Source: Candidatus Zipacnadum vermilionense (lineage in GTDB: Bacteria > Armatimonadota > Zipacnadia > Zipacnadales > Zipacnadaceae). From it: a stretch of 52,865 nt of DNA. Positions within the stretch are counted from its first letter, which is position 1. The number at the start of each line of letters is the position of its first letter. Position numbers and translations under genes: made by a program. A model generated the notes under the pieces. It made no database searches, was not told the origin of the DNA, and saw only the letters and a program-made list of their open reading frames with translations. This document shows, in pieces, positions 3,435 through 48,738 of the stretch. The DNA is taken from NCBI GenBank assembly GCA_029821755.1, contig JALGSV010000024.1, forward strand, positions 1-52,865, written 5' to 3'.

Positions 3435-6400
3435 CTACCCCGGCGGTAGCGGCAGCGTCTCCTCGTCGGACGGCGGAGTCTCCTCACTCGGCCGCCGCCA
3501 GCGCCGGAATAGCCGGCGCCCCAGCGAGTTGAACATCTCCGCGATATTGTCCCAGATGACGTACGTCGCGGGTACCAGCAGCAGCGACACGCCGGTGGCC
3601 AGCGCCAGGCCGAAGATCACCGCCACCGCCATCGGCGACCGGAACTCGCTGCCCTCGTTCACCGCCAGCGCGGTCGGAAGCATCCCGAAGATCATGGCCA
3701 GCGAGGTCATCAGTACCGGCTTCATCCGGTGCGGGCCGGCGGTGAGCAGCGCCTCGGTACGGTTCAGGCCCCGCTTGCGCAGTGTATTGGTATAGTCCAC
3801 GACCAGAATCGAGTTCTTCCCTACGAGCCCGACCAGCATGATCATCCCCAGCATGGAGATGATCGTCATTTGCATCCCGAACAGCAGCAGCCCAATCCCC
3901 CCGCCCACGATGGCCACGGGCAGGTTGAACAGGATGTTGAAAGGCTCCAGCACCGAATTGTACAGCGCCGCGGTCAGCATGTAGACCAGGAGGATGGCCA
4001 GGGCCATCGCCCCAAACATCCGCGTGAACGACTCGACAAACGCCTCGACCTCTCCGCCCCACTTGTAGGTCACGCCCTCCAGGTTCATTTCGCTGAGGGT
4101 CTTGTCGATGGCGGTCTGCGCCGCCCGGGTGCTGACGACCTGCGGGTCGTTGTAGGCGGTGACGGCTACCTCCCGCTGGCGGTTGAGCCGGTCGATGCGG
4201 CTGGGACCGACCGACAGCACCACCTGCGCCACGTCCTGTACCCGGATCGCCTCCCCCGCCCGGCCAAAGCCCACAATGCTCCCCGCAACGTCAGCGATGT
4301 TGTCTTTGTCCTGCTCGTTAAGTTCCACCCGGATGTCGTACTCGTCACCCCGGTCGCGGAACTTGGTGCTGGTCGTACCCGCGTACGAGCCGCGCAGGTT
4401 CCCGGCCACGTTTGCCAGGGTCAGACCCGCATCCGCCAGGCGCCGGCGATCTATATGCACCTGCACCTCCGGCCGGCCCGGCTTGGAGGAGGTGTCCACG
4501 TACCGCAAGCCCGGAATCCCCTCCATCTTGCGCCGCAACTCCTGCGAGGCTTTGGTGAGTTCTCCCAAGTCCGTACCCATCATATCCACCCGGATCGGCG
4601 CCTCGCCCCCGCCCCCCATACCGCCCTGGGTGGTGACGCGGAGGGCGGCGCCCGGCAGGTCCGCCAGGTCTTGCCGCAAGTCCTGCGCCAATTGCTCGTT
4701 GCTGCGCTGGCCGGCCTCCAACCGCGCCCGCCGCTTGCTCATCTGCAGAAAGGCGTTGCCGTATTGCCCCCCGGAGGTGCCCGCCATGAACCCCCCCGAC
4801 CCCAATTGCCCCACGGTGACCGATATGCTCTCGATCTCCGGGTACTTGTCCTTCTGCTCCAGCCGCTGCTCGACGGTCCGTACGAGGCTGTCCGTGTAAG
4901 CCAGGCGCGTGCCGGGCGAGGACTCCAGGTCGATGTTGACCATGCCCTGGTCGCTCTCCGGGAACATGCCGAAGCCTATGCGGGTGAAGATCAGCCACAC
5001 GGTCAGGATGAGCGCGCCATAGGCGATGCCAACCGTAAGCCAGGGGTGGTCCACCACCAGCTGCAGTACCTTCCGGTAGTTCCGCTCCAACCGCTGGAAG
5101 TTGCGGTCCCACCCGTCAAAGAACGACTGGATGGCACGCTGGGGGCCCCCGACGACAGCGCTCACTCGGTCTCGCCGCACATACCACCAGGCCGCCAGCG
5201 AGGGCGTCAGCGTAAACGACACCAATAGGGAGAACAGGGCACACACCGCGACCGTCAGGCCGAAGGAATAGAAGAACTGCCCCACCATCCCGCCCATGAG
5301 GGCCACCGGCACGAAGACGACCACGTCCACCAAGGTAATGGCCACGGCCGCCGCCCCAATCTCAACCCGGCCGTTGAAGGCCGCAGCCACCGGCTGTTCG
5401 CCAGAGTCCAGGTGTCTCTGGATGTTCTCCAGAACCACAATGGAGTCGTCAATCAGAATACCGACCGACAGCGCCAATCCCAGCAGGACCATCATGTTCA
5501 GGGTAAAGCCAAACCCCATCCCTATCGGCAGGAAGGTGCACATGATGGAAGTGGGAATCGCCAGGGCCACGATGATAGTGGCCCGCAAGTTGTGCAGGAA
5601 GAGGAAGACAATCAGCGAGGCCAGCAGCGCGCCCTCAATCAGCGCGTTGCGCACGTCGTAGATGGACTCGCGTACCTGCTCCGAGCTGTCCTGGGCGATG
5701 ACCGCCTTGATGTCGGAGGGGAGCGTCCCCGGGCGTTCCTCCGTGCCCACCAGCTTGGTCAGCGCCGCCCGGGTCTTGTCGCACACCGTCACCGTATTGG
5801 CCTCTGACTGCTTCTGGATGGAGAGGCCCACCGACGGCTGCTGGTTGAGGCGGGCGATGGTGCTCGGATCGGCGCTGGTGTCCAGCACCTCGGCGAGGCT
5901 GTCCAGACGCACCAGGCCCCCACGGGGCGTGGGTATCTCCAGCGCCCGAATCTGCTCCATGTCCTGGAATTCACCCATGACCCGGACGGTATAGGCGCGC
6001 AGCCCCTCCTTCAGGTCGCCGGCCGGTAGCTTGAGGTTGGAGGTGGCTAGGTACTGGGAAAGCTGGCTCAGACTCATCCCCACCGCGTCCAGCCGCGCCC
6101 GGTCCACGCGGATCTGAATCTCCCGCTTCGCTCCCCCGGTCACCGACACCGAGGCCACGCCGGGGATCTGCCCCAGCACCGGCTTGATCTTGTCGTCGAC
6201 AAGCTGGTAAAGCTCCCGAGGATCCCGGTCGCCGGTGATCCCGATGCGCATGACCGGCAGGGCGCTGATGTTGAGTTTGAGCAACTGCGGGGACTTGGCG
6301 TCGGTGGGAAAGAGCACCTTGGCGCGGTCCACCGCGTCGCGCACATCCGAGGCCGCGGCATCCAGGTTGGTGCCGTACTCGAACTGAATGGAGACCGTGC

Positions 6401-10278: not shown

Positions 10279-10307
10279 TTGACACTCCGTCCCCCCGGTG
10301 CTACATT
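10279..10307 (+). promoter_or_regulatory. sigma70-type promoter for hrcA operon, with degenerate CIRCE-like dyad
   Basis: TTGACA (10279-10284), 17-base spacer, TACATT (10302-10307), about 50 bases before the hrcA GTG. The same bases form TTGACACTC - N8 - CGGTGCTAC, which resembles the HrcA operator TTAGCACTC - N9 - GAGTGCTAA at about 7 of 9 and 6 of 9 positions but with the spacer one short. The promoter call is good; the operator call is weak. Confidence 0.6.
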
Positions 10308-10355: not shown

Positions 10356-11402
10356 GTGGGCCGCCTAGAGGCGAACGATCTTACTCCGCGACAAGAGGCT
10401 ATCCTGCTCGCGGTCGTGGGCGAACATATCGCCACCGCCGAGCCAGTGCCCTCCAAGCTGGTGCAGGAGAAGCACGGCCTGGCGGTCAGCCGCGCCACCA
10501 TCCGCAACGAGATGGCGGAGATGGAGCACCTGGGTTACCTGGGCAAGCCGCACACCTCCGCTGGGCGCGTACCGACCGAGGTCGCCTACCGCCTGTACGT
10601 GAGCCGCCTGGAGAGCGCCGAGCCGGGCCTGTCGCGGGAGCTGACCTGGGTGCGTGGGGAGTTGGCCCACGCCGGCTCCGATCTAACTGCGCTCCTGCGC
10701 ACCTCCACTCGGGTGCTGGCCGACCTGACCGAACAGGCCGCCTTGGCCTGCGAGCCGATCACTCCCGGCCAGTCCTTCTTGGCTTTCTCGCTGGCCGCCG
10801 TCAGCGCCCGTGCCATTCGCGTGTGCTACGAGATGGCGGAGGGCCGGCACGAGCTGCTCTGGGAGCCCGCCCAGCCGCTGCGTAGCGACCAGATCAACGC
10901 GCTCAGCGAGGCCCTGGCGAACGTTCTCTCCCGGGAGGGCCTGGATCGTCTCGACGTCGGTGCCCTGGCCGAGGAGACCGACCTGCCCGTGGAGATTATC
11001 TCCGGTCTCCTCCAGCTACTCGTGGAGAACACCGAGCAACGCGTCTACGTGGAGGGCGCGGCGCGGCTGTTTGCCTATCCGGATTTCCAGGACCACAACC
11101 GGCTGCAGGAGTTGCTGGTCGCCCTGACCCAGGAGGGCCCCACCCGGGCCCTGCTGCGGGGGGTCTTCGGCCGGGAGGGGATCACGGTTTTCATCGGCTC
11201 CGAGTTGGCCCGGGGACGCTTCTGCGACTGCAGCCTGGTGGCCCAGACCTATCGGGGCCCGCTGGCGCTGCGGGGCGCGGTGGCCGTACTTGGTCCCCTG
11301 CGCATGCCCTACCCCCGCGCCATGACTGCCGTCCGCTGCGTGGCGTATGAGATCGGCGGGATCTTGGGGAAGGGGGAGGAGGGGGAGGTCGATGGTCGAT
11401 AG
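10356..11402 (+). CDS. hrcA: heat-inducible transcription repressor HrcA
   Basis: 348 residues, normal for the family. The winged-helix DNA-binding domain is residues ~1-75 and carries the HrcA hallmark block ATIRNEMAEMEHLGYL followed by PHTSAGRVPTEVAYRLYV. The rest matches the GAF-like and dimerisation parts, ending with ALRGAVAVLGPLRMPYPRAM and a small acidic tail. HrcA represses chaperone operons by binding CIRCE and is itself kept active by a chaperonin. I chose the GTG at 10356 (GGGGG six to ten bases upstream), since the frame upstream is a Pro/Arg-rich non-conserved stretch covering the promoter. It heads a plus-strand operon with the next three genes, including an archaeal-type chaperonin. 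Confidence 0.93.
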   Translation: MGRLEANDLTPRQEAILLAVVGEHIATAEPVPSKLVQEKHGLAVSRATIRNEMAEMEHLGYLGKPHTSAGRVPTEVAYRLYVSRLESAEPGLSRELTWVRGELAHAGSDLTALLRTSTRVLADLTEQAALACEPITPGQSFLAFSLAAVSARAIRVCYEMAEGRHELLWEPAQPLRSDQINALSEALANVLSREGLDRLDVGALAEETDLPVEIISGLLQLLVENTEQRVYVEGAARLFAYPDFQDHNRLQELLVALTQEGPTRALLRGVFGREGITVFIGSELARGRFCDCSLVAQTYRGPLALRGAVAVLGPLRMPYPRAMTAVRCVAYEIGGILGKGEEGEVDGR

Positions 11403-11426
11403 TCGGCATAGAGGGAGGTATCGACA

Positions 11427-12062
11427 ATGGATGTAGCCGAGATAGATGAGCGGATCACCGGACTTGAGGATTCCGTGGCGAGACGCGTGGCGAAGATGGA
11501 GGACGTGATGGCGCGGTTTGTGTCGGCAACCGAATCATTTGCCGCCGAATGGTATCGGAAAACGGTCCAACAGGCGGTAAGCGACGCTTACGCTAAAGTC
11601 AATGAACGGACTGGCGAGGGGTTAGACGCGCTCAAGGCGGATCTCGAGGATGCGATCCTTCGGGTGCCTGAGCTGGTGCGGGAACGATTGGATAACGACA
11701 AGCTGTGGGACCATCGGTCTGAGCGTAAGTCGGTATCCACGGGAGTGACCGGGACGTATGGCCCTCAGGGACGCGGCGATGAGCCCTCGCTGAACGCGGC
11801 GATCAGGGGGACGCTGTCGCCCGTCGGTGCACTCCTTCGCAAGCATGGGCTCTTGGGCGACAAGACCACAAGCAATTGGAAGGGCGGGCCTACCGGCACC
11901 CTCGTCTTCCCGTACGGGTTCGATTTCTCCCCGGAGATGAAGCCCATACTGGAGGAGTATTCCGAGGACGACCGGCAATTGCGGCATTACCGCCAAGAGC
12001 TATCGGAACTGCGCGAGGCAAAGGGGCGGGCGGAAGCCCTGCAACGCTGGGAGGCGGCATAG
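11427..12062 (+). CDS. unrecognised protein inside the hrcA-chaperonin operon
   Basis: 211 residues; I do not recognise a family. Residues ~1-90 are strongly helical and acidic, with heptad-like spacing that suggests a coiled coil (EIDERITGLEDSVARRVAKM). The middle (~95-165) is loop-rich with Gly, Ser and Pro. The C-terminus (~175-211) is again helical and charged (EDDRQLRHYRQELSELREAK). GAGGTATCGACA precedes the ATG and the gene starts 24 bases after hrcA. Its codons use A- and T-ending forms more often than hrcA or the chaperonin, which suggests later arrival. No transmembrane segment or signal peptide is visible. Location suggests expression with the chaperonin; function unknown. Confidence 0.7.
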   Translation: MDVAEIDERITGLEDSVARRVAKMEDVMARFVSATESFAAEWYRKTVQQAVSDAYAKVNERTGEGLDALKADLEDAILRVPELVRERLDNDKLWDHRSERKSVSTGVTGTYGPQGRGDEPSLNAAIRGTLSPVGALLRKHGLLGDKTTSNWKGGPTGTLVFPYGFDFSPEMKPILEEYSEDDRQLRHYRQELSELREAKGRAEALQRWEAA

Positions 12063-12112
12063 CGGACACTGGCTGCGGCCGCCCCGGCCGGCAGGCCTTG
12101 CGCCACCCGAGC

Positions 12113-12168
12113 GGGCCGGATAGAATCTGTCGGTCCGCAAACGACGCGGACCGACATCTATCCGGCCC
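12113..12168 (+). terminator. long imperfect hairpin between the unknown gene and the chaperonin
   Basis: Left arm 12113-12138 and right arm 12146-12168 pair over about 23 bp with a 3-base bulge and a 7-base loop. The sequence CCTCCTAGTTTTGG follows, a weak U-run. It could attenuate transcription into the chaperonin gene or protect an RNA end. Confidence 0.5.
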
Positions 12169-12206
12169 CTCCTAGTTTTGGCTAGATGGTTAAGGAGCCT
12201 TCCCAT

Positions 12207-13787
12207 ATGGCCTCAACCGAATCGTCCAGTCCTGCCCCCGCCTCCGATGGGGCAACTGCTAATGAGAAGACCTCAGCCCTGATGGCCAACGCCGCCGCCG
12301 TGGTCGCTATCGCCGCCGCCGTAGAGGGCACGCTCGGCCCCAAAGGTCTCAACTCCATGCTGGTGGATCGCTACGGCGAGGTGACCATCACCAACGACGG
12401 CGCCACCATCCTGGAGCGCATGGAGATCAACCATCCCGCCGCCCGCCTGGTCATCGCCGCCGCTCAGGCCCAGGCGGAGCAGGTTGGCGACGGCACCACT
12501 ACCGCCGCTCTCCTCGCCGCCTCCCTGGTCAGCGAGGGCGTCCGCCATGCTCGCGCCGGGGTGCCGATTATCAAGCTCATCGAGGGGATGCAGGCCGGGA
12601 TGCGCCTGGCCGTGGACTTCCTGGACACCCAGGCCCAGCCCATCGCCGACTCCACTGACCCCCACCTGCGCCAGGCCGCGCTCATCGCCGGGCGCGGCGT
12701 GGGGGAGCTGGCCGACCTGGCCGTGGCCGCCGCGGCCCACCTGGGCTTCGAGCGCCTGCTGGACGAGGACTTCCGCCTCGCCGACCTGGTCCTCGCCCAG
12801 GAGGGCGCGCCCACCGAGCTGATCGAGGGCCTGGTCCTGGACCGCACTCGCCTCAACCGGCAGATGCCGCGCCAGGTACGGCTAGCCACCGTGCTCCTGC
12901 TGGACGACGCCTTGGAGCCCGAGGAGCTGGAGTCCGGCGCCCTCGGCACGGAAGCGGGCTTCCAGCGCTACCTGCGGCTGCAAGAGGAATTCCTGCACGG
13001 CTTGGCCGGTCTGCTGGAGGCCGGGGTCAACTGCTTCTTCGTGCGCAAGGGGATAGGCGACACCGCTGAGGAACTGCTCACCGCCGCCGGGGCCTTTGCG
13101 GTACGACGCCTATCGCGCCGGGACATGGCCCGCCTGGCCGAATTCACCGGCGCTCGCCTGGTCAAGCGCGGCGCGCTCAAGAAACCCGCCGCGGAACTGC
13201 AGCCCTTCCTGGGCCGAGCCGAACAGGTGGCGGAGAACGAGCGCTTCGACCATCTCCAGGTCCTGGGCGGTGCCGGTCGCCCCGCAGCGACCATGCTAGT
13301 TGGCGCCGCTACTCGAGAGGTCCGCCAGGAACGCCAGCGCATCGCCGAGGACGCCGCTAGCGCCGTGCAGGCCGCCGCCCGCGGCGGGGCAGTGGCCGGC
13401 GGAGGCGCCTTTGAGCTGGCCGCCGCCCGACATGTCAGTGCCTACCGGCCGCAAGCGCCCGGCATGGCCGCCTACGGCGTGGACTGCGTGGTGGAGGCGC
13501 TCAAGCGCCCCCTGTCGCAGATCATCAGCAACGCCGGCTTCAACCCGCTCGAGAAGGTCGAGCAAGCCTGGGCTGCGCAGGTCGAGACCGACACCGGGGT
13601 GTTGGCTCTCGACTGCGACAGCGGCCTGGTGACCGACATGCGCGAGGCAGGCGTCCTGGACGCCGCCCCGGTCAAGCGCCAGGCTCTGCAAGCCGCGCTG
13701 GAGATCGCCGAGGCGATCCTGCGTATCAACACCATCATCCGCCAGAAGCCGCAGCAAGCGGAGGCCGCCGATCCCGACACACTCTGA
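12207..13787 (+). CDS. archaeal-type (group III) chaperonin in a bacterium
   Basis: 526 residues, similar to thermosome/CCT subunits and not to GroEL. Diagnostic blocks: GPKGLNSMLVDRYGEVTITNDGATIL at ~44-69 (shown here split: GPKGLNSMLVD and TNDGATIL), MEINHPAARLV at 72-82, VGDGTTTAALLA at 93-104, QKGI-like RKGIGDTAEELL at 280-291, VAGGGAFE at 396-403 and SNAGFNPLEKV at 441-451. Catalytic aspartates expected for ATP hydrolysis appear present (D64, D95, D382). Residues ~240-262 correspond to the helical protrusion that forms the built-in lid, so no GroES partner is expected. The C-terminal Gly/Met tail of many chaperonins is missing. RBS AAGGAG precedes the ATG at 12207. Group III chaperonins have been described in some bacteria next to heat-shock genes. 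Confidence 0.92.
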   Translation: MASTESSSPAPASDGATANEKTSALMANAAAVVAIAAAVEGTLGPKGLNSMLVDRYGEVTITNDGATILERMEINHPAARLVIAAAQAQAEQVGDGTTTAALLAASLVSEGVRHARAGVPIIKLIEGMQAGMRLAVDFLDTQAQPIADSTDPHLRQAALIAGRGVGELADLAVAAAAHLGFERLLDEDFRLADLVLAQEGAPTELIEGLVLDRTRLNRQMPRQVRLATVLLLDDALEPEELESGALGTEAGFQRYLRLQEEFLHGLAGLLEAGVNCFFVRKGIGDTAEELLTAAGAFAVRRLSRRDMARLAEFTGARLVKRGALKKPAAELQPFLGRAEQVAENERFDHLQVLGGAGRPAATMLVGAATREVRQERQRIAEDAASAVQAAARGGAVAGGGAFELAAARHVSAYRPQAPGMAAYGVDCVVEALKRPLSQIISNAGFNPLEKVEQAWAAQVETDTGVLALDCDSGLVTDMREAGVLDAAPVKRQALQAALEIAEAILRINTIIRQKPQQAEAADPDTL

Positions 13788-13826
13788 TCCGCCTAGCGCG
13801 GGACGATTCTGAAGAGGCTATCACCC

Positions 13827-14345
13827 ATGTCCGACGAACTAACCGAACCCACTGAGGAATTCTCCGAGGAGACCCTCAACGACCAACTCGCCCACCTCCA
13901 GGAGGAACTGGAGCAGGAGCGGGACGCCCACCTGCGGGCGCTGGCCGATCTGCGCAACTACCGGGACCGCGTGGCCCGCGAGCATGCGCAGCAGGCCCGC
14001 TACGCTACCGCTGCTCTGCTGGAGTCGCTCATCCCCACTCTCGACCACCTAGAAATGGCGCTGGAGGCGGCGCAAGCGCATGGCGAGGGCGACACCTCGC
14101 TCGCCGAGGGCGTCTACTTGACCCAGCGCCAGCTTCTGGACGTCCTGGCCCAGGCGGGCCTGCAGCCCATTGCCGCGCTCGGCGAGGTCTTCGACCCTGC
14201 TCGCCATGAGGCCCTGGACGGCGAGCAAGTAGCCCCCGGCGACCCCGCCGAGGGCACGGTCACGGCCGAGCTGCGCAAGGGCTACTTGCTCCACGACCGC
14301 GTCTTGCGCCCAGTGCAGGTGCGAGTCGCGGTGGCGAACACCTAA
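13827..14345 (+). CDS. grpE: nucleotide exchange factor GrpE
   Basis: 172 residues. An acidic N-terminal segment (LTEPTEEFSEETLND) leads into a long coiled coil at ~20-70 containing the DLRNYRDRVAREH block, followed by the four-helix region and the beta-wing with ARHEALDGEQVAPGDPAEGTVTAELRKGYLLHDRVLRPVQVRVA; this last motif is the GrpE signature. It exchanges nucleotide on DnaK. Its partner dnaK is 32 kb away on the other strand, under what looks like HspR control, while grpE is tied to HrcA. It follows the chaperonin by 39 bases and is the last gene of the operon. Confidence 0.95.
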   Translation: MSDELTEPTEEFSEETLNDQLAHLQEELEQERDAHLRALADLRNYRDRVAREHAQQARYATAALLESLIPTLDHLEMALEAAQAHGEGDTSLAEGVYLTQRQLLDVLAQAGLQPIAALGEVFDPARHEALDGEQVAPGDPAEGTVTAELRKGYLLHDRVLRPVQVRVAVANT

Positions 14346-14568: not shown

Positions 14569-14598
14569 TTGACAGTCCTTCGCGGCGCTGCCTATAAT
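14569..14598 (+). promoter_or_regulatory. sigma70-type promoter for ftsZ
   Basis: TTGACA (14569-14574), 18-base spacer, TATAAT (14593-14598). Transcription would begin about 20 bases before the ATG. Confidence 0.75.
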
Positions 14599-14624: not shown

Positions 14625-15794
14625 ATGCCTACCGGCAGCCGAGCTCCTAAGAGAGGATCAACGTCAATGATGAGGCAGAATGTGGAAGAGTACGCCAAGA
14701 TTCGCGTTGTCGGTGTCGGCGGGGGCGGCTCCAACGCGGTGGACCGCATGATCGAGAGCGGCCTCATGGGCGTGGAGTACCTGGCCATCAATACCGACGC
14801 CCAAGTCTTGGATCTGTCCGCGGCCGACCGCAAGCTGCAGATCGGCGCCGAGCTGACCCGAGGCCTGGGCACCGGCGGCATCCCCGACCTGGGCCGCCAG
14901 TCCGCTGAGGAGAGCCGTCAGGATATCATGATGGCCCTCGACGGCACCGACATGGTCTTCGTCACCAGCGGCATGGGCGGCGGCACCGGTACCGGTGCTA
15001 GCGCCGTCGTCGCCGAAATCGCCCGCGAGCTCGGCGCCCTCACCATCGGTGTGGTCACCAAGCCCTTCACCGTGGAGGGCCAACGCCGGGCGGAGCTCGC
15101 CGCCGACGGTATCTCCCGCCTCAAGGAACACGTCGACACCCTCATCGTCATCCCCAATGACCGCCTGCTGCAGATGGGTGAGGAGGACCTCACCCTGCAG
15201 GAAGCCTTCTCCCTCGCCGATACCGTCTTGCAGCAGGGCGTGCGCGGCATCAGTGAGGTCATCGTCGTCCCCGGCTTGATCAACCTCGATTTCGCTGACG
15301 TTCGGGCGGTCCTCAATGACGCCGGCACCGCCATGATGGGCATCGGCGAGGCCACCGGTGAGGGCCGCGCCGTTTCCGCCGCCCGCGCCGCCATCTCCAG
15401 CCCGCTGCTGGAGGTGGACATCAAGGGTGCTGGTGCGGTCTTGTTCAACATCACCGCCGGCCCGGACCTGACGCTCAAGGAGGTCCACGAGGCTTGCGCC
15501 ATCGTGCAGGAGGCCGCCCAGGACGGCGACGGCGATGTAGACCTGACCCTCGGCGCGGTGACCGATCCGAAGATGGAGGGGCAGGTGCGCATTACCGTCC
15601 TGGCCACCGGCTTCGACGAGCAGCGCCCCGCTCCGCGCCGCACGCGCCAGGAGTCTCAGATCGCCGCCCGGCCAGCCTCTACCTCGGCCGCCGCGACCGC
15701 CGCAGAAACCCCCGCTTCCGGCGCCTTCACCGAGGAGATGCCGACCTACGACGAGGACGACATAGACATCCCCGCCTTCCTGCGACGGCGCTAG
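14625..15794 (+). CDS. ftsZ: cell division protein FtsZ
   Basis: 389 residues. Tubulin-like GTPase that polymerises into the Z ring at the division site. The GTP-binding signature is GGGTGTGA at 118-125; the N-terminal block VVGVGGGGSNAVDRM is at 28-42 and the T7 synergy loop NLDFADVRAVLNDAG lies near 220-235. After the GTPase core a ~55-residue Ala/Thr-rich linker leads to the conserved tail DIDIPAFLRRR, the docking peptide for FtsA/ZipA-type partners. GGAGG sits eight bases before the ATG. The gene stands alone: no ftsA or ftsQ lies next to it, unlike the usual division cluster. A GTAGGGGC hairpin follows the stop. Confidence 0.96.
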   Translation: MPTGSRAPKRGSTSMMRQNVEEYAKIRVVGVGGGGSNAVDRMIESGLMGVEYLAINTDAQVLDLSAADRKLQIGAELTRGLGTGGIPDLGRQSAEESRQDIMMALDGTDMVFVTSGMGGGTGTGASAVVAEIARELGALTIGVVTKPFTVEGQRRAELAADGISRLKEHVDTLIVIPNDRLLQMGEEDLTLQEAFSLADTVLQQGVRGISEVIVVPGLINLDFADVRAVLNDAGTAMMGIGEATGEGRAVSAARAAISSPLLEVDIKGAGAVLFNITAGPDLTLKEVHEACAIVQEAAQDGDGDVDLTLGAVTDPKMEGQVRITVLATGFDEQRPAPRRTRQESQIAARPASTSAAATAAETPASGAFTEEMPTYDEDDIDIPAFLRRR

Positions 15795-40902: not shown

Positions 40903-43347
40903 CTACGCCGCCTCTTCCCCTACCACCAACCTCAGCCTTATCTCCCCTTCCACTGCATCCGCCTGGATGGTGTCCCCCTCCCCGAACTCCCCGCGCAGCA
41001 GCGCGCTGCTGATGGGGTTCTCCACCCGCTTCTGGATCGTCCGCCGCAGCGGCCGCGCCCCGTAGCGCGGGTCGTACCCCTCCGCCGCCAGCAGCTCCTT
41101 CGCCGCCGTCGTCGCCACCAGGCGCAAGTTCCGCTCCCCCAGCGCCTTCTCCACCCGGCCCAGCATCAGGTCCACGATCTCCAGAATCTCCGCGTGGGTC
41201 AGCGCGTGGAAGACGATGGTCTCGTCAATCCGGTTGAGCAGCTCCGGCCGGAACACCCGCCGCAGCGCCTCCACCACCTGCTCCCGCATCCGCTCGTAGT
41301 GCTCCTCCCGCTCCTGCTCGTTGCCCTCCGACGAGGGCGGCGTGATGTGCTCGCTCCCCACGTTAGAGGTCATGATCACCACGGTATTGGAGCAGTCCAC
41401 CACCCGCCCGGCGCTGTCGGTCAGCCGCCCATCCTCCAGCACCTGCAGCAGGATGTTGAACACGTCCGGATGCGCCTTCTCAATCTCGTCCAGCAGGATC
41501 ACCCGGTACGGCCGCCGCCGCACTGCCTCGGTAAGCTGCCCGCCTTCCTCGTACCCTATATACCCCGGTGGGGCCCCGATCAGCCGGCTGACCGCATGGC
41601 GCTCCATGTACTCCGACATGTCGATGCGCACCATGGCGTCCTCGTCGTCGAAGAGGAACTCCGCCAGAGCCCGCGCCAGCTCGGTCTTCCCCACTCCGGT
41701 CGGCCCCAGGAAGATGAACGACCCGATGGGCCGCCGCGGGTCCTTCAGCCCCGCCCGCGCCCGCCGAATCGCCTCCGACACCGCCTGCACCGCCTCCTCC
41801 TGCCCCTTGACCCGCTGGTGCAGCCGCTGCTCCATCTCCAGCAGCTTCCGCGCTTCTTGCTCAAACATCCGCGACACGGGAATCCCCGTCCACGAGGCGA
41901 TGATCACCGCCACGTCCTCGGCATCTACCGTATCGTCAAGCTGCCCTACGCCCTCCCACTTCTCTTCCGCCGCCGGTAGCTTCGCCTGCAGCTCATCCAG
42001 CCGCACCTTCGCCCGCTCCGCCTCCTCATACCGCTGCGCCCGCACCGCCTCCTCGCCCTGCGCGGTCAGCTCCGCGATCTCCTTGCGCAGCGCCTCCGGC
42101 CGCGGCGGCAGGTCATAGGTATCGATCCGCAGCTTGCTGGCCGCCTCGTCAATCAAGTCAATGGCCTTGTCGGGCAGGTGCCGCTCGGTCAGGTACCGCG
42201 CCGAAAGCTGCGCCGCCGCCGCCAGGGCCTCGTCGGAGATATGTACCCCGTGGTGCTCCTCATACCGCGACCGCAGCCCCTTAAGGATCGCCACCGTCGT
42301 CTCCACGCTCGGCTCTTCCACCAGGATCGGCTGGAAGCGCCGCTCCAGCGCCGGGTCCTTCTCCACGTACTTGCGGTACTCGTCCAGCGTCGTCGCCCCG
42401 ATGGTCCGCATCTCCCCGCGCGCCAGCGCCGGCTTGATCATCTGCGCCGCGTCAATCGCCCCCTCCGCCCCGCCCGCCCCGACCACCGTGTGCAGCTCGT
42501 CCAAGAAGACGATGATCTTCCCTTCGGAAGCCCGAATGGCCTCAATGACCGCCTTCAGCCGCTCCTCAAACTCGCCCCGGTACTTCGTCCCTGCCACCAT
42601 CCCGGCCAGGTCCAGTTGCAGCACCCGACAATCCCGCAGCGGCTCGGGCACCTCTCCCGAGGCCACGGCCTGCGCCAGTCCCTCCACAATCGCCGTCTTA
42701 CCCACGCCCGCGTCCCCGATCAGCACCGGGTTATTCTTGGTCCGCCGCGACAGCACCTGGATGATCCGCCGAATCTCTTGCTCCCGTCCGATCACCGGGT
42801 CCAGCTTCCCCTCCCGAGTCATCTCGGTGAGGTCCCGCGAGTACTTCTCCAGCGCCTCGTAGGCCGCCTCGGCATCGGGTGAGTCCACCGCCTTACTCCC
42901 GCGAATCTGCTGCAGGGCGGCCAGCGCCTTCTCCGTAGTCAGCCCGGCTGTCGCTATAATCCGCGCCGCCTCCGTCTGCCCGTCCTCCAGGATGGCCAGC
43001 AGGATATGCTCCGCCGCGACATACTGGTCCCCAAATCGTCCGGCCACTTCCAGCGCCTTGCCCAGCACCCGGTCGGCGTGCGGTGTGACGTAGATCTGCG
43101 CGGTCTCGCCACCGCCCCCCACGGACACCTGCGGCCGCTTCCCCAGCTCCCGCTCGAGCTGGGCCACCACCTCCCCCACCTCCACGCCGCCCCCCTCCAG
43201 CACCCGCTGGACGACGCCTTCCTTCTGCTCCAGCAGTGCCAGCAGCACATGCTCCACATCGAGCTGCGTATGCTTGTACCGCTGGAGAATCTGTTGACTG
43301 GCGCTCAGCGCCTGTTTCGTCTGGTTAGTTAGCTTGTCGAAGTCCAT
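40903..43347 (-). CDS. ClpC/ClpB-type AAA+ unfoldase
   Basis: 814 residues. Order: Clp N-domain (~1-145), AAA+ D1 with Walker [10 protein letters not shown] (~205-213) and [12 protein letters not shown], a short middle domain with a UVR-like helix pair ([20 protein letters not shown]), D2 with GPTGVGKTE and [23 protein letters not shown], then the C-terminal small domain. Length and short middle domain are ClpC-like; ClpB has a much longer coiled coil. Yet after TSNVGS the loop that carries the ClpP-binding [LIV]GF tripeptide in ClpC lacks it. It may therefore act as a disaggregase with DnaK. The ribosome-binding site lies in the end of the HEPN gene, six bases away, indicating coupling. Confidence 0.9.
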
Positions 43348-43353
43348 AGCGTG

Positions 43354-44652
43354 TCACTCCACAGAGCACTCTCCACCGCCAGCACCGCGCTCCGCCTCAA
43401 GAGAATCGTACCGACGCCCCTCAGCCCATCGGTGCAGATCCGCCACTGACTCCCATTGGCCCAGTCGCGACGACACGGCGCAGATGAGTCTCAGCAACAG
43501 CGAATGTAGATGAGCCACGTCGGACCCACTGACAGAGGGCTTTGCCCCGTGGACCGTCCCGCTGCGACAGTCCGAGTAAAGCTTCCGGATGGTCGAGGCG
43601 ACCTCCAAGGCGTCTTCCCTCCCAGCGCCAATCAACTGTGCGGTGAGTTCGCCCAACGCGTTCGCCGCCGCGCCGCCGAAGTCGTACGGGCGCAATAGTC
43701 GTTCAAAGCCAGTGAAGTACTTGAGGGGCTGCGCCTCAACACGGGCCTCTCGCGCTGCGAGAGCCGCCCATTCGATGGCGTCCACCAGCCTCCGCTCCAG
43801 CTCGGTCCTCCCAGATCGAGGCTTGAGCATGGTCGTGACAGCCTCCGCAAGATTGTCCCGACAGCACCCGAGCGTCTGCACGTCAAGGTCGATCGGACAC
43901 TCCGGGCGGACGTTATTCATCTGCAGGAATGACCCACCGTCCCCGCACACCAATGCAGAGCGTAGCGAGGCCTCTGCCCCGTGCAGCGGCACTATGTCGT
44001 GGGCCACTCCCGGGTCGCGGTAGTAGCCCACTGTCAACTGCAGTAGGTCACAGAAGCGTCCGGCAATCTCCGTGGCGAGGTCGTCCGCTCCCGCTTCGTC
44101 GCCAGCTTCGACCTGAATCCTCACAGCTGCATCCTGCCATCCCTGAAACGCTATCTCCATGTTCTGGAGGATAGCGGCCTCCTCTTCTGGGGGTAGCCCC
44201 TGACCGCGCACGATGGCCGCGACCTCCCCCCATGCCGAGCCTGGTGCATCGCCCCTTAGGCGCACGATCCTCACGCCGGAGAAGTCGAAGTCAGCCAGCT
44301 CATCGGGGAGATGAATACCGGCGATTGGCACGAAGACAGTCCACCGCTTGCCTTCGGTGGGAAGGCTATCGACCAGTTCAGACACGCGCGGGGCGAGCGC
44401 ATCGCCGCTCCGTATGCCAGACCCATAGGCAGCACCAACCATGTTCCGAAATGCGTTTTCCATGGACCGCCTTCCGACATGGACGCCGGCTTTCTCGCAG
44501 TACTCGACGATGCAGTCTCCAGCCGCCGCAGTCTCCTTAGAAAAGCACCGCACGCCCGACCGAGGGTCCGTCTCGATCCCTGCGAGGGCTCGTTTGGCCA
44601 TCCCGATCAGCGCGTTCGTCAGCTTGGTCTTACGGTCCCCGGACATAGGCAT
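43354..44652 (-). CDS. Apea-like HEPN domain protein within the heat-shock operon
   Basis: 432 residues. The C-terminal ~110 residues fit the Apea-type HEPN fold: LERRLVDAIEWAALAAREA, FTGFERLLRPYD, and the closing KLYSDCRSGTVHG, which has the HEPN R-x4-H motif (R363, H368). HEPN proteins of this kind are often RNases in toxin or phage-defence systems, though many are uncharacterised. The first ~290 residues are not recognised. No transmembrane segment. ATG at 44650-44652 with GAGG; Met3 is an alternative. It lies between hspR and the ClpC-like gene, with only six bases to the latter. Codon use is less GC-biased than that of its neighbours, suggesting acquisition. Confidence 0.82.
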   Translation of the reverse strand: MPMSGDRKTKLTNALIGMAKRALAGIETDPRSGVRCFSKETAAAGDCIVEYCEKAGVHVGRRSMENAFRNMVGAAYGSGIRSGDALAPRVSELVDSLPTEGKRWTVFVPIAGIHLPDELADFDFSGVRIVRLRGDAPGSAWGEVAAIVRGQGLPPEEEAAILQNMEIAFQGWQDAAVRIQVEAGDEAGADDLATEIAGRFCDLLQLTVGYYRDPGVAHDIVPLHGAEASLRSALVCGDGGSFLQMNNVRPECPIDLDVQTLGCCRDNLAEAVTTMLKPRSGRTELERRLVDAIEWAALAAREARVEAQPLKYFTGFERLLRPYDFGGAAANALGELTAQLIGAGREDALEVASTIRKLYSDCRSGTVHGAKPSVSGSDVAHLHSLLLRLICAVSSRLGQWESVADLHRWAEGRRYDSLEAERGAGGGECSVE

Positions 44653-44776
44653 CCCGTCCTCTGCGGCGTCTCGCCGGTGTGGGGTGGCGGTACTGTGTCT
44701 CCTCCCGGCACCGCGGGCTTCCAGCGCATCCCTATGCGCAGCCCGCCGCTCCAACCCCACTCCCCACTCGCGTCTC

Positions 44777-45130
44777 CTAAACGACCTCCACCTTCTCCGC
44801 CGCCCGCCGCTGGGCCGGCCCCAGGGCCCGCGGGCCTCGGGCCACCACCCCGTGCAGCCGCTCGATTTCCGCCTCCATCTTCTCCATCCGATCCAGCAGC
44901 CGCAGCACGATCTCCACCCCGGCCAGGTTCACCCCCAGCTCCTGGGTCAGCCGCTTAATCTGCTGCACTCGCGCCACATCGGCCTCCGAGTACAGCCGGA
45001 TATTGGCCTCCGACCGCCCCGGCGCCACCAGCCCCACCCGCTCATACATGCGCAGCGTCTGCGGATGACACTCCACCAGCCGCGCCACGACACTGATATG
45101 GTATAGAGGTCCTTCTCGGTCTGCTTTCAT
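44777..45130 (-). CDS. hspR: MerR-family heat-shock repressor HspR
   Basis: 117 residues. MerR winged-helix domain at ~8-78 with the HspR-specific block [47 protein letters not shown], then a coiled-coil dimerisation helix ([17 protein letters not shown]). HspR binds HAIR sites and represses dnaK, often with DnaK as co-repressor. Position directly after dnaJ is the classical dnaK-(grpE)-dnaJ-hspR order; grpE is missing here. Two HAIR-like sites are visible at the dnaK promoter. GAGGCGAGAAG precedes the ATG. Confidence 0.95.
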
Positions 45131-45179
45131 CTTCTCGCCTCACCCCTCCCCAGTTCGTCATTCACCACTCATCAATTCC

Positions 45180-46298
45180 CTACAGCCCTTCCGCCATCCC
45201 CTTCCTCGGCTCCTCCGTCCACGTCTCTGCCAGCCTCTCCACCGCTTCCTTCTGCTCCTTGGTCAGGTGCTTGGGCGTGGTGATCTTGACCTTCACGTAC
45301 TCATCGCCCTTGGCCTGGCTGCCCCGTTTGGGTCCCCCCTGGCCTTTGAGGCGGAAGGTCTGCCCGCTGCTCGTCCCCGCCGGCACCGTCAGCGTCACCG
45401 GCCCCTCCACCGTCGGCACCTTCACCTTCGCTCCCTGGATTGCCTCGACTACACTTATCGGCAGCTCGACCGTCACATTGTCCTGTTCATCGCGCTTGAG
45501 CAAAGCATGCTCCTCCACCTGCAGCTCCAATATCAGGTCCCCATTCGGCGCTCCGCGAAAGCCCCGCCCACCTTCTCCGGCCAGCCGCAGCATCTGCCCG
45601 CTGTGCACCCCCGCCGGAATCTTCAGCGCCACCTTCCGCTCCCGCGCCACTTCTCCCCCGCCCCGGCAGCTACTGCACCGCTCGGTAATGATCTCCCCTG
45701 ACCCCTGGCACTGCGGACAGGCCGCGGGCATCCCGAAGAATCCCCGCTGCCCCGACTGCCCGCTCCCCTTGCAGGTCGGGCACTGCGTCGCCTTCCCACC
45801 CAGCCCGTCGCACTCCGCGCACCTATCGGCCACGGTGAAGACCAGGTCTCGCTTGGCGCCCTTGACCGCGTCGGCGAAGCTCACGTTCAGCCGGTAGTGG
45901 ATATCCTGCCCGCGCTGAGCCGCCTGCGGCCCCGTCCGCCCCCGCTGCCTCCCCGCCTGCGCCCCCATGTTCCCAAACAGGTCCCCGAAGATGTCCTGGA
46001 AGCTCCCCGCCCCGAAATTGGTATAGACATAGTCCCCAAAGTCCGCGCCCTGCCACTGCCCCCCAGCCTGCGCCTGTTGGAAAGCCGCGCCATACTGGTC
46101 ATACTTTTGGCGCTTCTCCTTGTCGGAAAGCACCTCATACGCCTGGCTAAGCTGCTTATACTTCTCCTCCGCCGCGTCATCGCCGGGATTGACGTCGGGA
46201 TGGTACTTGCGTGCCAGCTTTCGATACGCCTTGCGTATCTCCGCCGCCGAGGCCGTCTTCGGCACACCTATGATTTCGTAGTAGTCAACTGATGGCAT
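45180..46298 (-). CDS. dnaJ: chaperone protein DnaJ
   Basis: 372 residues. J-domain at 1-70 with the HPD motif in [11 protein letters not shown]; Gly/Phe-rich region to ~130; four CxxCxGxG zinc-binding repeats ([33 protein letters not shown]) at ~165-230; then the two beta-domains for substrate binding. Co-chaperone that delivers clients to DnaK and triggers ATP hydrolysis. Start is the ATG at 46296-46298 (homology begins [13 protein letters not shown]); the ribosome-binding site is weak and the upstream frame is within repeat hairpins. It is 275 bases downstream of dnaK. Confidence 0.95.
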
Positions 46299-46573
46299 GA
46301 TTCCGGTAGTGCAGGCTTCCCCGTCTGCGTCCGTTCTGGTAGCGCAGGCCTCCAAGCCTGCGTCTCTCCCGGTGGCACCGGCGTCTCGCCGGTGCGGGAT
46401 GGCCCTGCGGTGTTCTCCTCCCGGTACGACGGGCATCCTCGCCCGTCACTCCCCGGCGCACTCACACCGCGCCGTCTACGGCGCCGCCAGGTTCTCTACC
46501 CCCCTCTCCCGCCCAGCGCGTCCGCACGCAGGAGAGGGGGGCCAAGCGCACTTGTGCGCCGGGCGAAGCGTCC
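46299..46573. repeat. cluster of four different palindromes between dnaK and dnaJ
   Basis: On the plus strand, consecutive stems: GTGCAGGC/GTCTGC (46310-46330), GCGCAGGCC/GCCTGCG (46340-46362), GGCACCGGCG/CGCCGGTGC (46375-46401), GACGGGC/GCCCGTC (46429-46447), and CCCCCCTCTCC/GGAGAGGGGGG (46499-46541). The third and fourth share flanking sequence with a copy at 44667-44710 upstream of the HEPN gene. Confidence 0.6.
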
Positions 46574-48454
46574 TTACTCCGCCTCGAACTCCGCGTCGAT
46601 CACCTCGGGCCCACCCGGCGCGGACCCCGCTCCCGGGTCCGCTCCCGGATCCGCCTCCGGCCCCGGCCCGGCTTCCGGCCCGGCTTCCGGACCCGGTCCG
46701 GCCTGCTCGTACATCCGCTGCGAGATCGCCGAGAAGCTCTGCTGCAGGTCCTCCATCGCCGCGCGGATCGCCGCCGCGTCGTCGCCTTGGGTCAGCTTCC
46801 GGAGCTCCTCGATCTTCTCCCGTAGCGGCGCCGCCTCGCTCTCGGGGACCTTGTCCCCCAGCTCGTTCAGGGTCTTCTCCAGCTGGTACGCTAGCGAGTC
46901 GCCCTGGTTGCGGGCCTCAGCCAGTTCCTTGAACTTGCTGTCCTCCTCCTCGTACGACTTGGCATCCTGCACCATGTTGCCGACCTCGTTCTCGGAGAGC
47001 TGCCCGGAGCCGGTGATGGTGATCTCCTGCTCCTTGCCGGTCGCTCGGTCCTTGGCCGTGACGTTCAGGATGCCGTTGGCGTCGATGTCGAAGGAAACCT
47101 CGATCTGCGGGATGCCCCGCGGCGCTGGCGGCAGGCCCGCCAGATGGAAGCGGCCCAGCGATTTGTTCTGCGAGGCCCGGGCCCGCTCGCCCTGCATCAC
47201 GTGCACCTCCACGGTCGTCTGGAAATCCGACGCCGTTGAGTACACCCGCTGCTCCCGCGTTGGGATGTTGGTGTTGCGCGGAATGCACACGTCCATCACA
47301 TCGCCGAGCGTCTCCACGCCCAGGCTCAGCGGAGTCACGTCCATCAGCACAATGTCCTGCGCCCCACCGGACAGCACTCCGCCCTGGATAGCAGCACCGA
47401 TCGCCACTACCTCATCGGGGTTCAGGTCCTTGCGCGGCTCCTTACCAGTCAGCCGCTTTACTAGTTCCTGCACCGCCGGGATCCGCGTGGACCCACCTAC
47501 CAGGATAACCTCGTCCAGCTCCCCCTGACCGATTCCCGCCTCCTTCATGGCGTCCTGCACCGCGACCTCGGTCTTGTTGATCAGGTCGCCGATCAGCTCT
47601 TCCAGCTTGGCGCGGGTCAGCACCATCTCCATGTGCTTGGGCCCCTCGCCCTCCACGGAGGTCAGGAAGGGCAGGCTGACCGTGGTCTGCGTGGTGGTGG
47701 ACAGCTCCGTCTTGGCCTTCTCCGCCGCCTCGCGCACCCGCTGCAGGGCCTGCCGGTCCTTGCGGATATCCACGCCTATCTCCTTCTTGAACTCGTCGGC
47801 CAGGTAGTCCAGCACCCGCTCGTCGAAGTCGTCCCCGCCCAGGCGGGTATCGCCGGAAGTAGCCAGCACGTGGTACGCGTCGCGCTCCTCGGCGCCCCCA
47901 ATCTCCACGTCCAGCACCGACACGTCGAAGGTCCCGCCGCCCAGGTCGTAGACCAAGATGGTCGCTTCCTTCTTCGACTGCCCAAAACCGTACGCCAGGG
48001 CCGCTGCGGTCGGCTCGTTGATGATCCGCAGGACTTTCAGCCCGGCGATCTCTCCCGCTTGCTTGGTGGCAGTCCGCTGGTCGTCGTCGAAATACGCCGG
48101 CACGGTGATAACCGCCTCCGTAACCGGCTCGCCCAGGTACGCCTCCGCGTCGGCCTTCAGCTTCTGCAGGATCATCCCCGAAATCTGCTCCGGCGAGTAA
48201 TCCTTGCCGTCAATAGCGGTGCGGTCCCGGGTGCCCATATTCCGCTTAATCGAGGAGATGGTCCGCTCCGGATTCAGGACGGCCTGCCGCTTGGCCGCGC
48301 GCCCTACCAGACGCTCCCCCGTCTTGGAGAAGGCCACCACGGAGGGCGTAATCCGCTCGCCGTCGGGGTTGATGATCACCTTCGGCTGGTCCGCCTCCAT
48401 AACTGCCACACACGAGTTGGTCGTTCCCAGGTCAATGCCTACTGCCTTAGCCAC
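46574..48454 (-). CDS. dnaK: molecular chaperone DnaK
   Basis: 626 residues. Hsp70 ATPase domain begins [20 protein letters not shown]; phosphate-2 loop [15 protein letters not shown] and [14 protein letters not shown] follow. Substrate domain with [13 protein letters not shown] at ~365-380 and the helical lid after ~485. The tail is an unusual Gly/Pro/Glu/Ala repeat ([21 protein letters not shown]) ending VIDAEFEAE instead of the common EEVxDK. The start codon is GTG at 48452-48454 with GAGG four bases upstream. Leader of about 190 bases contains a double palindrome; the promoter carries HspR-type operators. Confidence 0.97.
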
Positions 48455-48651: not shown

Positions 48652-48681
48652 ATTATAGTACGTTGAGTGCATTGCTGTCAA
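48652..48681 (-). promoter_or_regulatory. sigma70-type promoter for dnaK-dnaJ-hspR operon
   Basis: Minus strand TTGACA (48681-48676), 18-base spacer, TATAAT (48657-48652). The -35 box lies inside HAIR-like site 1, so HspR binding would block polymerase. Confidence 0.85.
48663..48681. promoter_or_regulatory. HAIR-like HspR operator 1
   Basis: TTGAGT-N7-TGTCAA. The left half matches the HAIR half-site TTGAGT exactly; the right half matches ACTCAA at 4 of 6. Read alternatively it is the dyad TTGA-N2-GCA-N-TGC-N2-TCAA, which is perfect. Confidence 0.75.
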
Positions 48682-48719: not shown

Positions 48720-48738
48720 TTGATAGCAATACACTCAA
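48720..48738. promoter_or_regulatory. HAIR-like HspR operator 2
   Basis: TTGATA-N7-ACTCAA. The right half matches the HAIR half-site exactly; the left half is 4 of 6. It is the reverse-oriented twin of site 1, centre to centre 57 bp (about 5.4 helical turns). Confidence 0.7.

Follow-up and report, generated by a model that had tools for sequence, protein, structure and literature searches.

Group III chaperonins, and with them the prototype Ch-CPN, were reportedly treated by Techtmann and Robb in 2010. Ch-CPN is the chaperonin of Carboxydothermus hydrogenoformans (An et al., 2017, PMC5635000; PDB 5x9u, 5x9v). Published residue roles in this protein cover three aspartates (Asp56, Asp87 and Asp373), the lid residues Leu237, Phe243, Tyr246 and Phe253, and Arg155, which replaces a lysine of group II chaperonins and is conserved across all group III members; a loop of group II chaperonins is absent (PMC5635000). 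Group III genes have been published as lying in the DnaK (hsp70) operon, with one exception. The repressor HrcA is helped by GroE in other bacteria, and double control by HrcA/CIRCE and HspR/HAIR has been described, for example in Campylobacter (PMC8533110).

The window analysed here, a stretch of 52,865 nt, is the entire contig C76 of Candidatus Zipacnadum vermilionense, an Armatimonadota genome of 4.39 Mb in 115 contigs (95% complete). One of its genes, in the Armatimonadota version of the usual hrcA-cpn-grpE cluster, specifies a group III chaperonin. A setting beside hrcA and grpE is the known home of this family, and the adjacency itself is not new.

The chaperonin and its cluster

The cluster lies on the plus strand. 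A sigma-70-like promoter (10279-10307, TTGACA-17-TACATT, with TG), overlapped by neither a CIRCE nor a HAIR site, precedes hrcA (10356-11402, GTG start; TIGR00331, 201.5 bits against a cut-off of 197.2; PF01628, 99.7 bits). There follow an open reading frame of 211 aa, ORF X (11427-12062), a long near-perfect stem-loop of 59 nt (12112-12170), the chaperonin gene cpn (12186-13787) and grpE (13827-14345; PF01025, 134 bits). The likely start of cpn is the ATG at 12207, which is preceded by AAGGAG at approximately 12190-12195 and agrees with the start in a relative (G289). Downstream, ftsZ (14625-15794, plus strand; TIGR00065, 407 bits) is the conserved neighbour of hrcA-(cpn)-grpE in this order. 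It has a perfect sigma-70-like promoter of its own (14569-14598, plus strand, TTGACA-18-TATAAT) and so could be transcribed independently of the promoter of hrcA. An Rfam scan of the window returned zero elements at the gathering score. The profile scores bear out the coordinates and identities that the original prediction gave to HrcA, the chaperonin and GrpE, and the chaperonin is encoded together with hrcA and grpE as its flanking genes. The predicted hrcA-X-chaperonin-grpE operon stands as a gene order, but no relative of the open frame X occupies that slot elsewhere.

ORF X is without family. Profile searches gave no family match, no relative was found in the hrcA-cpn-grpE slot of other loci, there was no plasmid match, and 291 Armatimonadota genomes yielded one weak relative; a role as a conserved co-chaperone was rejected on the lack of family and slot relatives and on that single weak match. 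The GC3 of X is 0.72, compared with 0.84-0.87 in the neighbouring genes. Its absence from the loci of relatives, the single weak match and the lower GC3 mark X as an orphan insertion, so that the conserved unit is hrcA-(cpn)-grpE-ftsZ. The intergenic stretch between X and cpn as a whole folds at -82.1 kcal/mol (z -5.3). The stem-loop within it has one perfect copy in the genome; of three relatives, two have none and the third has a match with three mismatches. As it is single-copy and nearly missing from relatives, the idea that it is a recurrent element or the operator of a regulon was rejected. Acting as an operator, a terminator or an attenuator, it could place cpn under separate control.

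The cpn product matches PF00118 (Cpn60_TCP1) with 367 bits (E 1.9e-109), and scores 284 bits against thermosome models compared with 148 against the GroEL equivalog. Its nearest natural solved structure is 5x9u (410 bits), the C. hydrogenoformans protein; the score is higher still, at 556 bits, for 9rwq, a reconstruction of an ancestral chaperonin. Alignment places D71, D102 and D389 at the catalytic Asp56, Asp87 (GDGTTT) and Asp373 of the prototype; R170 at Arg155, which is invariant in the group III alignments A1 and A3; and L253, F259, Y262 and F269 at Leu237, Phe243, Tyr246 and Phe253, the lid residues under strict conservation. The six-residue nucleotide-sensing loop is absent: columns 179-184 of alignment A2 are gapped in this protein and in every group III row, and are filled in three archaeal rows. 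An AlphaFold model (pLDDT 88.9) includes lid helices at residues 250-254 and 256-278, modelled with confidence, and its best PDB fold matches are 5x9v and 5x9u, with TM scores of 0.94-0.95 by target length and approximately 46% identity over the fold match.

In a quick tree, whose long GroEL and group II branches make any depth assigned to the root of group III provisional, the group III set has an SH-aLRT support of 93, and archaeal group II (100) and GroEL (100) stand apart. The closest branches to the window protein are those of its genus and then of its family, as expected (97, 100 and 98), and all lie inside a single Armatimonadota clade (99). The phylogeny proposed as a check on the original prediction therefore places the protein within group III, outside GroEL and apart from group II. 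The further claims of a thermosome-like group III chaperonin with all ATPase aspartates and a built-in lid are upheld, as the published sequence marks tested are all present and the nearest fold is that of the Carboxydothermus protein.

HrcA, HspR and their candidate sites

Absence of groEL and groES, as originally predicted, is correct for the contig but not for the genome. The genome-wide search for groEL, groES and CIRCE sites that had been suggested locates groES-groEL on contig C114, with a perfect CIRCE approximately 80 nt upstream of groES. The only hrcA match in the genome is the window copy, the product of which exceeds the cut-off of the TIGR00331 equivalog, and CIRCE sites are found in this genome at groESL and nif3. 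Within the window, no CIRCE (TTAGCACTC-N9-GAGTGCTAA) was found at up to three mismatches. The best CIRCE match in the 350 nt upstream of hrcA has nine mismatches, no better than shuffles that preserved base composition only, and a weak CIRCE or HAIR site at this position was rejected for this reason; these scans use consensus sequences, so that they could overlook an operator for HrcA in the hrcA promoter if its sequence has diverged. The upstream regions of 44 Armatimonadota hrcA genes likewise contain no CIRCE with fewer than three mismatches, the best being a site with three (family f41).

Of the genomes examined, 15, this one among them, have a CIRCE site at groESL, and several of the 15 have no group III gene. 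Three 97%-complete genomes of family f35 carry the group III gene, and neither HrcA nor CIRCE was found in them. At least one further Cpn60 match is present in every Armatimonadota genome that bears a group III gene except G290, a close relative (79% complete) in which the group III gene was seen and no second Cpn60 match was found.

CIRCE was also observed upstream of a gene pair comprising nif3 (DUF34) and a CdsZ-like zinc-ribbon gene in 10 genomes of the order. In the present genome the site is at C43:146464-146490 (L011, 6465-6491); the other loci are L222, L229, L231, L232, L235, L239, L241, L243 and L245. Conservation of the site before this pair argues that HrcA probably controls it. 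A literature search on CIRCE, HrcA and Nif3 jointly returned nothing, and neither a link between CIRCE and group III operons nor a CIRCE site before nif3 was mentioned in the literature searched.

The dnaK and dnaJ genes lie apart from grpE, in a minus-strand run of dnaK-dnaJ-hspR-(468 aa)-clpC (40903-48454) approximately 31 kb from the hrcA cluster. It contains dnaK (46574-48454; PF00012, 764 bits), dnaJ (45180-46436; PF00226, PF01556 and PF00684), hspR (44777-45130; NF047375, 108.8 bits against a cut-off of 105) and, between hspR and clpC, a gene for a 468-aa protein without a Pfam or NCBIfam match (43354-44760). Two HAIR-like sites lie upstream of dnaK on the same strand, each with two mismatches in 12 positions to TTGAGT-N7-ACTCAA: TTGACAGCAATGCACTCAA (48663-48681), which overlaps the TTGACA/TATAAT promoter of dnaK, and TTGAGTGTATTGCTATCAA (48720-48738). 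With an HspR equivalog above cut-off and two candidate sites, dnaK-dnaJ-hspR is predicted to form an HspR/HAIR unit.

Distribution of the ring gene and its linkage to hrcA

The group III gene is present in approximately 40 of 291 Armatimonadota genomes, in two as fragments only. The usual order is hrcA-cpn-grpE, commonly followed by ftsZ in the window's order, where at least 15 other genomes lack the chaperonin and keep hrcA-grpE-ftsZ. In nearly every Bacillota group III locus, among named genomes, the arrangement is hrcA-cpn-grpE-dnaK-dnaJ, and hrcA is preceded by a perfect CIRCE, mostly 20-65 nt upstream of the gene, at 51 of the 58 hrcA-cpn loci in Bacillota. Two Armatimonadota loci of family f31 (L068 and L070) have dnaK directly after hrcA-cpn-grpE, a sign that the ancestor probably had the full operon.

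Several loci depart from these arrangements. In G260 (L081, 2930-4609) the hrcA-grpE slot holds a decayed group III gene, in which the NDG aspartate is lost and the frame is broken; an identification of its product as GroEL was rejected (139 bits to the group III protein, 53 to GroEL). In G289, hrcA and cpn are on different contigs, and a palindromic element of approximately 40 bp lies in frame in the DNA-binding domain of hrcA (L129, 4221-5297; element at approximately 5130-5180). The three genomes of family f35 (L053, L059 and L065) have the group III gene outside a heat-shock cluster. In a cyanobacterium, Candidatus Cyanaurora vandensis, the gene for a group III chaperonin is not part of a heat-shock operon (L190, 4986-6503); in the tree the protein has a very long branch and is weakly placed within Armatimonadota.

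The linkage of hrcA, cpn and grpE is probably a heritage of ancestral hsp70 gene order that has no regulatory meaning, the ring being a general stress or housekeeping chaperonin that partners DnaK. The two f31 loci, the full operon kept in Bacillota and the behaviour of cpn as a presence/absence slot within hrcA-grpE-ftsZ all point this way, although the persistence of the linkage after the departure of dnaK-dnaJ is left unexplained. This reading is compatible with the best explanation, the working model given below.

A recent horizontal gain of the ring gene in the window's lineage could account for the patchy distribution in Armatimonadota. However, the placement of the protein among those of its genus and family, within one Armatimonadota clade, is the expected one, and the gene occupies the same slot wherever hrcA adjoins, including the decayed copy in G260; this origin is improbable, and repeated loss fits the distribution better than recent gain.

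The original prediction raised the group III ring as the natural partner of HrcA, so that cis-linkage would reflect a feedback loop in which the repressor senses the ring. Two observations favour such a loop: most group III loci, in two phyla, have cpn next to hrcA, and the perfect CIRCE of the Bacillota operon makes the ring part of the HrcA regulon there. Against it, the single HrcA of this genome is accompanied by groESL with a perfect CIRCE, and there is none at the promoter of hrcA and cpn. Moreover, order-mates keep hrcA and CIRCE-groESL without the ring, at least 15 of them retaining hrcA-grpE-ftsZ, and the three f35 genomes keep the ring where neither HrcA nor CIRCE was found. HrcA and the ring are therefore separable. 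These observations do not support the claim, and a loop of this kind is very unlikely; at most, the ring may have a minor modulating role. The same evidence argues against HrcA taking input from both chaperonins, with the cis-encoded ring modulating the repressor of groESL and the load of one ring being sensed to set the level of the other, an arrangement with very little probability.

Working model and comparison with known systems

The preferred model, which we consider very likely as a whole, places the group III ring in a CIRCE-free cluster with basal expression, and has HrcA acting in trans and tuned by GroEL. Gene identities, sites, presence/absence, the tree and the predicted fold were obtained directly; from these we infer ring assembly, folding, basal expression and GroEL tuning. 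By analogy with the Carboxydothermus chaperonin, the product most likely assembles into a double ring, of 16 subunits as is characteristic of group III, which is driven by ATP, carries its own lid and folds clients without GroES. Unfolded clients would bind at the lid, ATP binding would close the ring and hydrolysis would release them, and DnaK may pass clients to the ring, as has been proposed in print for the family. The chaperonin is probably made at a basal level from the hrcA promoter, since the operon is without CIRCE and without dnaK-dnaJ, which lie in the separate HspR unit; the stem-loop at 12112-12170 possibly modulates this expression. HrcA would act in trans on CIRCE sites that lie on other contigs, before groES-groEL and before the nif3-cdsZ-like pair. 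The repressor is most likely tuned in the manner of its Bacillus, Chlamydia and Campylobacter counterparts, with GroEL rather than the ring as the input.

Group II chaperonins (the archaeal thermosome and CCT) share the overall fold, the built-in lid and the ATPase residues with the window protein, but have the six-residue nucleotide-sensing loop, a different lid and a clade of their own (100). Ch-CPN is closer, with sequence, catalytic residues, the Arg155 equivalent, the missing loop, lid residues, predicted fold and heat-shock cluster location in common. The present system differs from it in its phylum, in a cluster without dnaK-dnaJ and CIRCE, in the orphan gene and long stem-loop inserted between hrcA and cpn, and in having ftsZ next. 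With respect to the published hsp70-operon setting, hrcA and grpE adjoin cpn, whereas dnaK-dnaJ are in the distant unit.

As in the double control described for Campylobacter (PMC8533110), both repressors are encoded here and groESL has an HrcA site. In the window organism, however, dnaK has the HAIR-like sites, groESL and nif3 have CIRCE, and no overlap was seen.

Bacillota operons (Pelotomaculum, Sporomusa, Paenibacillus, Thermoactinomyces and others; L135-L199) also have hrcA directly upstream of cpn and grpE downstream. They differ in the CIRCE before hrcA and in the dnaK-dnaJ that follow, neither of which the window cluster has. Compared with them, dnaK-dnaJ would here be under HspR and groESL under HrcA, and hrcA-cpn-grpE appears to have neither type of site. 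This Armatimonadota variant, a cluster without CIRCE and dnaK/dnaJ in which the slot for the ring gene is fixed but not always occupied, is modestly new; the Armatimonadota distribution, the separability of HrcA and ring and the conserved CIRCE at nif3 are also new. The ring and the repressor have been gained or lost independently of each other, which is a caution that gene adjacency alone is no proof of regulatory feedback. The Armatimonadota ring is uncoupled from DnaK and CIRCE control, yet still lies between hrcA and grpE, and so provides a natural comparison with Bacillota for studies of the role of the group III ring.
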